DNA from: an uncultured Clostridia bacterium
GTDB taxonomy: Bacteria > Bacillota > Clostridia > Oscillospirales > Ruminococcaceae
Direction of reading: 5' to 3'
NCBI GenBank assembly: GCA_947175045.1
Contig: CAMWLH010000050.1
Span: forward strand, 1 to 10,204
DNA length: 10,204 nucleotides
Both the position numbers and the translations under genes were made by a program. Numbering within the stretch: the first letter of the stretch is position 1; every line of letters starts with the position of its first letter. Below, piece by piece: positions 6,215 to 10,204 of the stretch. The notes under the pieces were generated by a model. That model searched no databases. It saw only the letters and a list, made by a program, of their open reading frames with translations, and had not been told where the DNA came from.

Positions 6215-6251
6215 CCCCCAAAGCAATTCGGGATTTGGCTTGCAGAAAAAG

Positions 6252-6420
6252 TTATAGTAGCATAACGCCCACGCAGCGGAATTTCAAAAAGGTCGGGTTC
6301 GCCGAACGACAAACGATGATCGATTCCAGCAATCGCGCGGAGCGAACGCAGTGAGCGGAGCACGCTTGCGGGAATTTTGAAATTCTTTTAAATCATTTAA
6401 TTCTTGTCAACATGACTTAA
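6252..6420 (+). repeat. Dispersed intergenic repeat, copy B
   Basis: Second, better preserved copy of the repeat at 1348-1500, in the same orientation. GAATTTCAAAA (6279-6289) and TTTTGAAATTC (6375-6385) are perfect 11-base inverted arms enclosing about 85 bases. Inside are small hairpins: GTTC-GCC-GAAC near 6297 and CGATT-CCAGC-AATCG near 6321. The tail TTTTAAATCATTT, then TTCTTGTCAACATGACTT, is shared with copy A, and in part with the minus-strand piece at 8475-8520. It fills most of the 319-base gap between dgkA and the sigma gene; no ORF of substance is present. Confidence 0.72.
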
Positions 6421-6462
6421 CAGCATGATAGACGAGATCAACACTATATATACAGGTGAGTC

Positions 6463-8453: not shown

Positions 8454-8474
8454 AAGACCTCCCGAATGCTTTTA

Positions 8475-8560
8475 AGCTGTGTTGACAGGAATCAACCGAT
8501 TTTAAAGAATTTCCCGCACCGCCGAATGCTGAAAAGCAACATTCCCGCGCGGGCGGACAG
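8475..8560 (-). repeat. Degenerate repeat piece upstream of the patatin gene
   Basis: Read on the minus strand, this stretch carries the same tail as copies A and B: GCGGGAAATTCTTTAAAATC (8517-8498), then a TCCTGTCAACACAGCTT tail. The first block differs from 3181-3200 at only two of 20 positions. The body contains a hairpin (GAATG/CATTC) near 8524-8545. It lies in the leader of the patatin gene, as copy A lies in the leader of the lipase-like gene. Confidence 0.5.
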
Positions 8561-8637: not shown

Positions 8638-8666
8638 TTGTGTATACTTTCCGCATTTTGTATAAT
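8638..8666 (+). promoter_or_regulatory. Sigma-A promoter of the recombinase gene
   Basis: TTGTGT (8638-8643), a 17-base spacer and TATAAT (8661-8666). Transcription would start near 8673, so the start codon must lie downstream. This fits the TTG at 8696, behind GGAGG. Confidence 0.72.
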
Positions 8667-8695
8667 ACTGATTGGGAAAGAAAGGAGGGATCAAA

Positions 8696-9535
8696 TTGTT
8701 GATTTCCGACAAAGTGCGGGAGTACGCGGGAGAGCTTATGGAGCGGGAGCGTTCGGAGAATACCGTAAAAAAATACCTACGTGATCTCGGCAAGCTGATG
8801 GAATACGCGGGCGATTCTCCGCTTGACAAGGCTTTGCTGGTGAGCTTCAAGCATTCTCTTGCCGAAAAATACTCCCCGTCGAGCGTAAATTCGATCATTG
8901 CGGCGGTGAACGGCTTTCTTGATTTTGCGGGCATGAGCTCTCTGCGCCTTAAACCGCTGAAAATACAGCGCCGCGCGTTCCTGCCCGAGGAGCGCGAGCT
9001 TACCCTCGGGGAGTACAAGCGGCTTGTATCGGCGGCGGAGCGCGGGTCTGACGAGCGTCTTGCGCTGGTTTTGCAGACTCTCTGCGCCACGGGTATACGG
9101 GTCTCGGAGCTTAAATTCATCACCGCCGAAGCCGTCCGCGGGGGCAGGGCGCTCATATCCTGCAAGGGCAAGAGCCGAGTGGTGTTCCTGCCCGAAAAGC
9201 TGCAAAAAATCCTCGCGAAATACCTCAAAAAGCGGGGCATACGCGAGGGCGCGGTGTTTGTGACAAGGAGCGGCGTTCCGCTTGACCGCTCGAATATCTG
9301 GCGGGAGATGAAGCGCCTGTGCAGATCGGCGGGAGTTGCGGAGAAAAAGGTTTTCCCGCATAATCTGCGCCATTTGTTCGCCAGAACCTATTACTCGCTT
9401 GAAAAAGACCTGTCGCGCCTGGCTGATATTCTGGGACATTCCGCTGTGAACACCACAAGAATTTACACCATGGAAAGCGGAAAGATCCACGCAAAACAAA
9501 TAAATCGGCTCGGGTTAGTGCTCGATACAACATAA
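8696..9535 (+). CDS. Tyrosine recombinase, probable invertase for the adjacent switch
   Basis: Predicted 279-residue site-specific recombinase of the XerC/XerD/integrase family. The N-terminal SAM-like core-binding domain covers about 1-90 (ERERSENTVKKYLRDLGKLM). The catalytic domain follows with all active-site residues: Arg135 (ATGIRVSELK), Lys159 (CKGKSRVVFLP), His222 and Arg225 (HNLRHLFA), His248 (LGHSAVNTT) and the nucleophile Tyr257 (TRIYTMES). TTG 8696 is the chosen start: AAAGGAGGG lies seven bases upstream and the promoter at 8638-8666 excludes the earlier in-frame TTG at 8672. The last two codons and the stop lie inside the 26-bp recombination site. An exact inverted copy of that site lies 236 bp further on, so this enzyme probably flips the segment between them. 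A housekeeping Xer role at dif is possible but less likely given the paired sites. Confidence 0.92.
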   Translation: MLISDKVREYAGELMERERSENTVKKYLRDLGKLMEYAGDSPLDKALLVSFKHSLAEKYSPSSVNSIIAAVNGFLDFAGMSSLRLKPLKIQRRAFLPEERELTLGEYKRLVSAAERGSDERLALVLQTLCATGIRVSELKFITAEAVRGGRALISCKGKSRVVFLPEKLQKILAKYLKKRGIREGAVFVTRSGVPLDRSNIWREMKRLCRSAGVAEKKVFPHNLRHLFARTYYSLEKDLSRLADILGHSAVNTTRIYTMESGKIHAKQINRLGLVLDTT

Positions 9536-9551
9536 TGTTGATTATGTTGTA
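9526..9551 (+). repeat. Left recombination site of the invertible segment
   Basis: TACAACATAAT (9526-9536), core GTTG (9537-9540) and ATTATGTTGTA (9541-9551). The 11-base arms are perfect inverted repeats and only the 4-base core is asymmetric. This is the expected form of a tyrosine recombinase crossover site, with two binding arms around a short spacer. It overlaps the recombinase stop codon (9533-9535). Confidence 0.88.
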
Positions 9552-9563
9552 CAAGATCAAACC

Positions 9564-9593
9564 TTGCCGACTCTTTACAATACATATTATAAC
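9564..9593 (+). promoter_or_regulatory. Weak candidate plus-strand promoter in the invertible segment
   Basis: TTGCCG (9564-9569), an 18-base spacer and TATAAC (9588-9593), overlapping the -10 of the strong minus-strand promoter. If used, its transcript would run into the long hairpin at 9774-9829 and end there. The -35 is poor. Confidence 0.25.
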
Positions 9594-9614
9594 ACAACTT
9601 TTTTCGCTTGTCAA
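9586..9614 (-). promoter_or_regulatory. Perfect sigma-A promoter inside the invertible segment, pointing left
   Basis: On the minus strand, TTGACA (9614-9609), a 17-base spacer and TATAAT (9591-9586). Upstream lie T8 and T7 tracts. In the present orientation it fires toward the 3' end of the recombinase gene, antisense to it. After inversion it would fire toward the pilin gene, with a start near 9760. Confidence 0.88.
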
Positions 9615-9773
9615 CACTTTTTCAAAAAAAACACAAAAAAATTCCACCTGCACCTAGAAAACTTGTGAAAATTTTCAAAATACAAATTTTTCCATTTCTT
9701 GCGGGTTTGCAAAGCTGTTCCCGCTACTTACAGAATAATACAAAAAAGGAATAATATAAAAAAACGACCGCCG

Positions 9774-9838
9774 CCGCCGCGCGGCTTTACAACATAATCA
9801 ACATTATGTTGTAAATGCCGCTGCGGCGGTATTTTATC
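9774..9838. terminator. Long GC-rich hairpin straddling the right site, terminator-like, present only in this orientation
   Basis: Bases 9774-9798 pair with 9803-9829 over about 25 bp: the site arms, two extra T-A pairs, then CCGCCGC/GCGGCGG and GCGGC/GCCGC blocks with single bulges at 9816 and 9822. TATTTTAT follows on the plus strand. On the minus strand TTTTTTT follows (9764-9758) after nine bases. It should stop or reduce transcription in both directions. Its left leg (9774-9787) lies inside the invertible segment and its right leg outside, so inversion breaks the lower stem. Confidence 0.7.
9788..9813 (-). repeat. Right recombination site, inverted copy of 9526-9551
   Basis: TACAACATAAT (9788-9798), core CAAC (9799-9802) and ATTATGTTGTA (9803-9813). 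This is the exact reverse complement of the left site, 26 of 26 bases. Flanking bases do not match beyond the site, so the repeat boundary is sharp. It forms the top of the longer hairpin at 9774-9829. Confidence 0.88.
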
Positions 9839-10032
9839 GGTATGCGACCCTAAAAAAAGGGTTACATATAAAATCGCCCGAAGCGCGGGAGTGAAGCGGC
9901 TCGGCGGGCGGAACAGCGCGGTACATATTCTTTTTTAAACGGGCGAAAGCCAAAGACCGCGTGAATCCCGACCCACCGAAAAGCAGAAGCCAAGCGCAGG
10001 GCAGAAAAAACTTTTTTCAGGAGGTCTTTACT
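9839..10032 (+). promoter_or_regulatory. Long structured leader of the pilin gene
   Basis: About 200 bases without an ORF precede the pilin start. Seen elements: ACCCT/AGGGT around an A run near 9847-9862; CGCCCG (9884-9889), which can pair with either of two CGGGCG copies downstream (about 9903 and 9940); CGCGGT/ACCGCG enclosing a GGC-GAAA-GCC hairpin (about 9917-9961); and a GAAAAAA-C-TTTTTTC hairpin just before the AGGAGG at 10019-10024. No known riboswitch consensus was recognised. Alternative pairings make RNA-level control possible. No clear promoter of its own was found here. Confidence 0.45.
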
Positions 10033-10204
10033 ATGTTAAAGAAACTGCAATCCCTCAAAGCCAAAAAAGGCTTTACGCTGGTCGAGCTGATAGTTGTTAT
10101 CGCTATCATCGCGGTTCTGGCGGCTATCCTTGTGCCTACCATCCTGGGCTACGTTACTTCTTCGAGAGTTACATCGGCTGATTCGACAGAGGCTACCCTT
10201 AAGG
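10033..10204 (+). CDS. Type IV prepilin (major-pilin-like), 3' end outside the window
   Basis: The first 57 residues of a type IV pilin or pseudopilin are visible. A short basic leader MLKKLQSLKAKKG ends in the prepilin peptidase site; cleavage after Gly13 leaves the N-methylated Phe of FTLVELIVVIAIIAVLAAIL, with the invariant Glu at +5. The hydrophobic alpha1 helix continues into LVPTILGYVTSSRV. AGGAGG lies eight bases before the ATG. Products of this class are exported, processed by the PilD-type peptidase and assembled into surface fibres for adhesion, twitching or DNA uptake. It lies downstream of the invertible promoter segment and is its obvious target. Whether more pilus genes follow is beyond the window. 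Confidence 0.93.
   Translation, partial: MLKKLQSLKAKKGFTLVELIVVIAIIAVLAAILVPTILGYVTSSRVTSADSTEATLK

Follow-up and report, generated by a model that had tools for sequence, protein, structure and literature searches.

This locus raises the question of whether a tyrosine recombinase inverts a short promoter-bearing segment beside its own gene and thereby switches an adjacent type IV pilin gene off and on. The window, by which we mean the whole stretch of DNA analysed (10,204 bases), is an entire contig (C50) of the draft genome G000, which comprises 2.55 Mb in 443 contigs and is 78% complete; its family takes in a genome of Fournierella massiliensis, a species that NCBI places in the Oscillospiraceae, Clostridia. 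The recombinase gene, described as complete in the first-pass annotation, is indeed open from 8696 to 9535 on the plus strand, with TTG at 8696 or 8699 as its start and TAA at 9533–9535 as its stop, and profile searches of the product returned Phage_integrase at 94 bits together with Phage_int_SAM_1. A predicted candidate promoter for the gene (TTGTGT-17-TATAAT, three mismatches to the consensus) lies at 8638–8666 on the plus strand. An alignment of the window recombinase with nine relatives showed that R134, K158, H221, R224, H247 and Y256, which we take to be the catalytic residues, are invariant. Judged by its reading frame, its domains and these residues, the recombinase is intact. The window also contains dispersed repeats at 1336–1504, 6247–6426 and 8466–8513, about 50–100 bases long and 71–81% alike, which have no visible link to a switch.

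Two 26-bp recombination sites, at 9526–9551 on the plus strand and at 9788–9813 on the minus strand, follow the gene. As had been claimed, they are exact and opposite: the right site is the exact reverse complement of the left (100% complementary across 26 bp), and together they bound 236 bp in inverted orientation. By a simple estimate, the chance of such a pair in 10,204 bases is about 1e-8. Each site has the architecture TACAACATAAT-4 bp-ATTATGTTGTA, in which palindromic 11-bp arms flank a 4-bp spacer (GTTG/CAAC), and each contains a CATAA-N6-TTATG core that is presumably the same as in dif. The stop codon of the recombinase gene falls within the left site. The segment between the sites (9552–9787), which is predicted to be invertible, carries a perfect sigma-A-type promoter (TTGACA-17-TATAAT) at 9586–9614. 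This promoter had been recognized earlier with its orientation left unstated; it is on the minus strand and points at the recombinase, not at the pilin. With the promoter pointing the other way, the pilin gene is predicted to be OFF as assembled. Inversion of the segment in silico left both sites unchanged and moved the promoter to 9725–9753 on the plus strand, where it would end 34 bp ahead of the right site and face the prepilin start codon (ATG 10033), so that the segment promoter would face a gene after inversion.

We regard it as highly probable that the recombinase inverts the 236-bp promoter segment and switches the adjacent type IV pilin gene between OFF, the state as assembled, and ON. 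Strand exchange would occur within the matching spacer region of the dif-like sites, and the promoter in its inverted position would drive transcription of the pilin gene. In the OFF state, a predicted RNA hairpin across the right site (9773–9830, plus strand), whose arms pair beyond the site in the assembled orientation only, may keep transcripts of the recombinase gene from running on into the pilin gene; inversion would remove the part of the left arm that lies beyond the right site. The region 9755–9845 is predicted to fold at −44.0 kcal/mol as assembled, compared with −26.1 kcal/mol when flipped; for a slightly shorter stretch the values are −44.0 and −24.8 kcal/mol.

The type IV prepilin gene reported after the segment was found at 10033–10203 on the plus strand, where the first 57 codons from the ATG match N_methyl (PF07963, 37 bits against a cut-off of 21.2; TIGR02532). 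The gene is limited to these 57 codons in the window because the contig ends at 10204, and we assume an intact pilin gene from the complete prepilins of two matching cassettes. The cassette of G026 (L057) combines a 54% identical recombinase, the sites and a promoter facing away with a complete 192-aa prepilin, and that of G640 (L240), a member of a different genus within the family, combines a 72% identical recombinase and an exact inverted pair of 26-bp sites with a perfect segment promoter facing away from a 248-aa prepilin. The promoter thus points away from the prepilin in all three cassettes. A more distant cassette, L117, also has a prepilin target. The window cassette is one of a very large family, whose 110 examined targets included three prepilins; one more (L240) was found later. 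The cassette pilin of G026 is an extra copy, since other contigs of this genome hold further pilin matches, one of them 80% identical over the first 95 residues; G000 likewise has another pilin, on C293. The pilus platform family T2SSF exceeded its cut-off in G000 and was present in all four genomes checked; because it also matches 13 of 14 control genomes, it speaks only weakly for a pilus machine.

How widespread the recombinase and its sites are was assessed at several levels. Among 8,000 candidates scored, at least 7,888 proteins matched the recombinase at E ≤ 1e-60. It was present in 98 of 396 genomes of the family (E ≤ 1e-30) and in 109 of 396 genomes of the order (E ≤ 1e-60, 95% completeness requested), two overlapping sets that both count G000. 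At three mismatches or fewer, the site pattern occurs in 10 of the 43 genus-level genomes, G000 included, and a reversed control pattern in one of the 43. For the analysis of the sites, 150 loci were pooled (the best 80 of 586 confirmed from GTDB contigs, 60 family matches and 10 genus loci), and six duplicates were dropped to leave 144 unique loci; L148 and L158 of G178, for instance, duplicate L077 and L099. A consensus detector placed an inverted pair directly 3′ of the recombinase in 114 of the 144 loci, and in none of 640 shuffles or 73 upstream stretches. In 41 of these 114 loci the left site takes in the stop codon of the recombinase gene.

The notion that every relative carries a pair was rejected on these counts and on those of 20 later loci from the order search, which are mostly more distant and include several per genome. 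Of the 30 pairless loci among the 144, 17 are cut off by a contig end no more than 531 bases on, and the other 13 extend for more than 1.2 kb downstream. The later set has a pair in nine loci; nine others are pairless despite 5 kb of downstream sequence, and two end 18–20 bases past the recombinase. Relatives with the recombinase and without a pair by the consensus detector, of the kind that the first-pass annotation had expected to speak against a switch, thus exist in part. A consensus-free search that gave none in 220 shuffles recovered pairs from 3 of these 22 loci with room. Two of the three have dif-like AAAATC arms and the third is unlike the rest. A looser limit gave pairs in L069, L086, L116 and L129, one of which was also found by the consensus-free search. 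As pairless loci with room persist, a sizeable minority of loci has either no pair or an unrecognized one. Directly 3′ of the recombinases at L247 and L248 (G619:C1) there are pairs with AAAATC/GATTTT-like arms that the consensus detector overlooked, a hint that distant copies may use other classes of site. Five loci contain three site copies instead of two (L084:1507–1856, L105:3127–3448, L118:1218–1661, L126:8823–9123 and L138:8836–9185); two of the sites are close together with matching spacers, and alternative inversions or small deletions are possible there.

When sites were chosen by their arms only, 88 pairs passed the filter from the 161 loci offered. The 4-bp spacers of 86 of these 88 pairs match in the inverted register, with 59 distinct spacers represented, and drift would not keep so many different spacers matched. 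In the direct register, one of the 88 matches. That pair, at L187 (G309:C398), could favour excision or could contain a mis-chosen site. The register of the spacers also bears on the explanation that the enzyme is a mobile-element integrase with its attachment sites and not part of an invertible switch. The presence of an integrase-family domain agrees with this explanation, which is nevertheless extremely improbable in view of the near-uniform inverted register, the 236-bp size of the window segment with a promoter inside it, and the exact-arm site pattern, which has 0 matches in viral contigs. A phage origin of the sites was rejected on this last result as well.

A comparison of related genomes for the flipped form, as had been suggested, revealed opposite orientations within a trio of close species. 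Between Fournierella massiliensis (L077) and G344 (L151) on the one side and G247 (L150) on the other, the recombinase, 490 bases of upstream sequence and 2.5 kb of downstream sequence align collinearly at 88–91% nucleotide identity, whereas 139–141 bases of the segment align on the opposite strand at 81–85% identity. The target gene of this naturally flipped switch is a BTAD regulator. Recombinase distance was correlated with site-arm distance (Mantel r of 0.355 for the inner and 0.359 for the outer arms, n = 112), compared with r of 0.091 for a control flank, and none of 2000 permutations reached the arm correlations; shared ancestry contributes to this correlation. Contig ends within 350 bp of the recombinase were found 14 times on its 3′ side, where the sites are, and once on its 5′ side (134 loci, duplicates removed). 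Contig starts within 350 bases, counted by eye among the full-length family and order matches listed, numbered 20 on the 3′ side and two on the 5′ side, in sets that overlap. Such breaks at the sites fit, as indirect evidence, what mixed orientations would do to an assembly. The two further prepilin cassettes, the natural flip in relatives, the matching of spacers and the contig breaks all point to a phase switch, as the first-pass annotation had proposed from the window.

The cassette is also found before other kinds of genes. In four members of the genus it precedes an operon for a contractile injection system (eCIS; L052:5168–17853, L053:107–7089, L055:664–14374 and L056:1–13384), for which a scan of L055 alone gave matches to eCIS_core, Pvc16_N, sheath, tube, baseplate and AAA families. 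The promoters of all four loci face the recombinase, away from the eCIS operon. The eCIS sheath occurs in 19 of the 43 genus genomes, and the six copies that are at least 96% identical are those of the four cassette loci and of G011 and G012. In the latter two genomes, a single site (L062:599–624 and L063:6144–6169) and a recombinase remnant stand before the same eCIS operon; judged from their sequence, these loci are decayed switches. No site at up to four mismatches and no recombinase turned up in nine stretches next to further eCIS loci, several of these stretches being truncated at a contig end. In G037 (L061:5653–6787), the recombinase gene has several stop codons, with two degenerate sites alongside. 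Decay of this kind within the genus lends some weight to the view that the window cassette, too, is a frozen relic, in which the recombinase formerly inverted the segment and is now inactive in this lineage. We consider a relic very improbable, as the window reading frame is intact, the catalytic residues are common to the nine relatives and the two sites show no difference over their 26 bp.

The direction of the segment promoters was then compared across the family. A promoter with no more than one mismatch is present in 48 segments, facing the recombinase in 45 and the target in three, and in 30 of 1140 shuffled segments. At two mismatches or fewer, 67 promoters face the recombinase and 13 the target, and 34 segments have none; we prefer the stricter set because the two-mismatch set is less one-sided and some of its 13 target-facing promoters are oddly placed. 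At L107:8828–9270 and L118:1259–1661, strong promoters point both ways within the segment; whichever way it lies, both sides would be transcribed. The excess of near-consensus promoters facing the recombinase (45 of 48) could mean that the switch mainly regulates the recombinase, the assembled promoter making antisense RNA over its gene and the pilin being merely a neighbour. This is very improbable, given that two other cassettes have a prepilin in the same place, that four share the same eCIS operon, and that the promoters of L139, L140, L150 and L167 (one to two mismatches, 34–44 bp from the right site) face the target.

A hairpin restricted to the OFF orientation was rejected as a family trait, because 19 of 68 promoter-OFF loci beat shuffled flanks as assembled, compared with 14 of 68 when flipped. 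The mean folding energy at the right site was −20.9 kcal/mol as assembled and −17.4 kcal/mol flipped (n = 114, Wilcoxon 2.5e-5), and in L150, a locus in the ON direction, the assembled form gives the stronger hairpin. We retain the OFF-state hairpin for the window and for L240, whose hairpin, different in sequence from that of the window, is predicted to fold at −35.7 kcal/mol as assembled and −15.2 kcal/mol flipped, without the T-run of an intrinsic terminator after its stem; the contrast in L057 is weak (−22.6 compared with −16.7 kcal/mol). Searches of the window, L057 and L240 against Rfam at gathering thresholds found no riboswitch in the pilin leaders; the sole match was a T-box in L057, upstream of the recombinase. 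A Plasmodium family matching the other strand over the window hairpin (E 0.0017, 30.3 of the 70 bits required) was taken as chance.

Further cassette targets include UDP-galactopyranose mutase, GGDEF and EAL proteins, the BTAD regulator and a sugar transferase. By a crude rule, 47 of the 110 targets have a signal-like N-terminus, and large secreted proteins are among them. G000 itself contains a second inverted pair around a perfect promoter, at positions 8647–8672 and 8865–8890 of contig C5 (L006); the operons on its two sides diverge and encode glycosyltransferases and ABC-2 exporters. This pair shares the inner arms of the window sites but has another spacer, and may possibly be an either-or coat selector. 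The recombinase search gave no match on the 19-kb contig C5. Apart from the window recombinase no close member was found in G000, so this enzyme may act in trans on the C5 pair; a missing enzyme is as likely, because the draft is only 78% complete and in G026 a nearly identical pair has a recombinase of that genome next to it (L054). We tentatively put forward, as a possibility on the doubtful side, a portable, spacer-coded module of the Clostridia, in which the end of an Xer-like recombinase gene is fused to a dif-like site, and which is placed before type IV pilins, eCIS and glycan genes; in G000, the one detected recombinase would also flip the second promoter in trans, selecting between the divergent glycan-export operons and reshuffling fibre and coat together.

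Invertible promoters with adjacent tyrosine recombinases are already known. In E. coli, the adjacent tyrosine recombinases FimB and FimE reportedly invert the fimS promoter before an adhesin-fibre gene. The window resembles fimS in having an adjacent tyrosine recombinase and an invertible promoter before a fibre gene, but differs in that its sites are 26-bp dif-like palindromes, its target is a type IV pilin, and its protein scores 25.5 bits, far below the cut-offs of 221 and 222 of the NCBIfam tyrosine-type DNA invertase models PRK09870 and PRK09871. Type IV pili are likewise said to phase-vary through DNA inversion in Moraxella bovis, where the pilin genes themselves invert by means of an enzyme that is not a tyrosine recombinase; in the window, by contrast, the segment holds the promoter and the pilin gene lies outside it. 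As for Xer/dif, the window recombinase is of the same protein family (solved relatives 4a8e, 5hxy and 1a0p). It falls, however, below the Xer equivalog cut-offs of NCBIfam (140.8 of 220 bits for XerA, 118 of 329.6 for XerD and 108.3 of 335.15 for XerC), and unlike that system it has two inverted sites around a promoter. The available text of PMC5903667 describes the E. coli fimbrial switch as short and promoter-only, and RecV of C. difficile as a clostridial tyrosine recombinase that acts on invertible regulatory DNA and switches cwpV and flgB. By that account RecV acts on several separate invertible sites, whereas the left site of the window overlaps the end of the recombinase gene.

Inversion of tail fibres is dealt with, to judge from the available text, in PMC10598620. 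The closest counterpart is found in the accessible part of PMC11892184 (Microbiome 2025), where 32 of the 33 members of inverton group 139 come from the class Clostridia and the group is significantly linked to tyrosine recombinase group 35. The member from Clostridium sp. D5 has 26-bp repeats with 205 bp between them and shifts its orientation across passages, and in that from Intestinimonas butyriciproducens the repeats are 14 bp long and enclose 227 bp. The class, the type of enzyme and the repeat length of one of the two examples agree with the window cassette, and on this comparison, which is by description only, the family is probably inverton group 139 with invertase group 35. That part of the paper yielded no result on pilins, contractile injection or spacer matching. 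Among titles and abstract openings, in which subscription papers are thinly covered, we found no report of a Gram-positive type IV pilin gene behind an invertible promoter or of promoter inversion at a contractile injection system, which is no proof that none exists. To the earlier remark that no described system with this exact site or target was known, one correction applies: the family has probably been glimpsed before, as inverton group 139 with invertase group 35.

If the proposed switch is real, Gram-positive gut-type bacteria would use DNA inversion to hedge their bets on type IV pili and on a contractile injection system. The site grammar (11-bp arms, a pair-specific 4-bp spacer and, often, an overlap with the end of the recombinase gene) would then allow such switches to be found from sequence. 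The family is also naturally suited to the question of how Xer-like enzymes keep to their own site pair.
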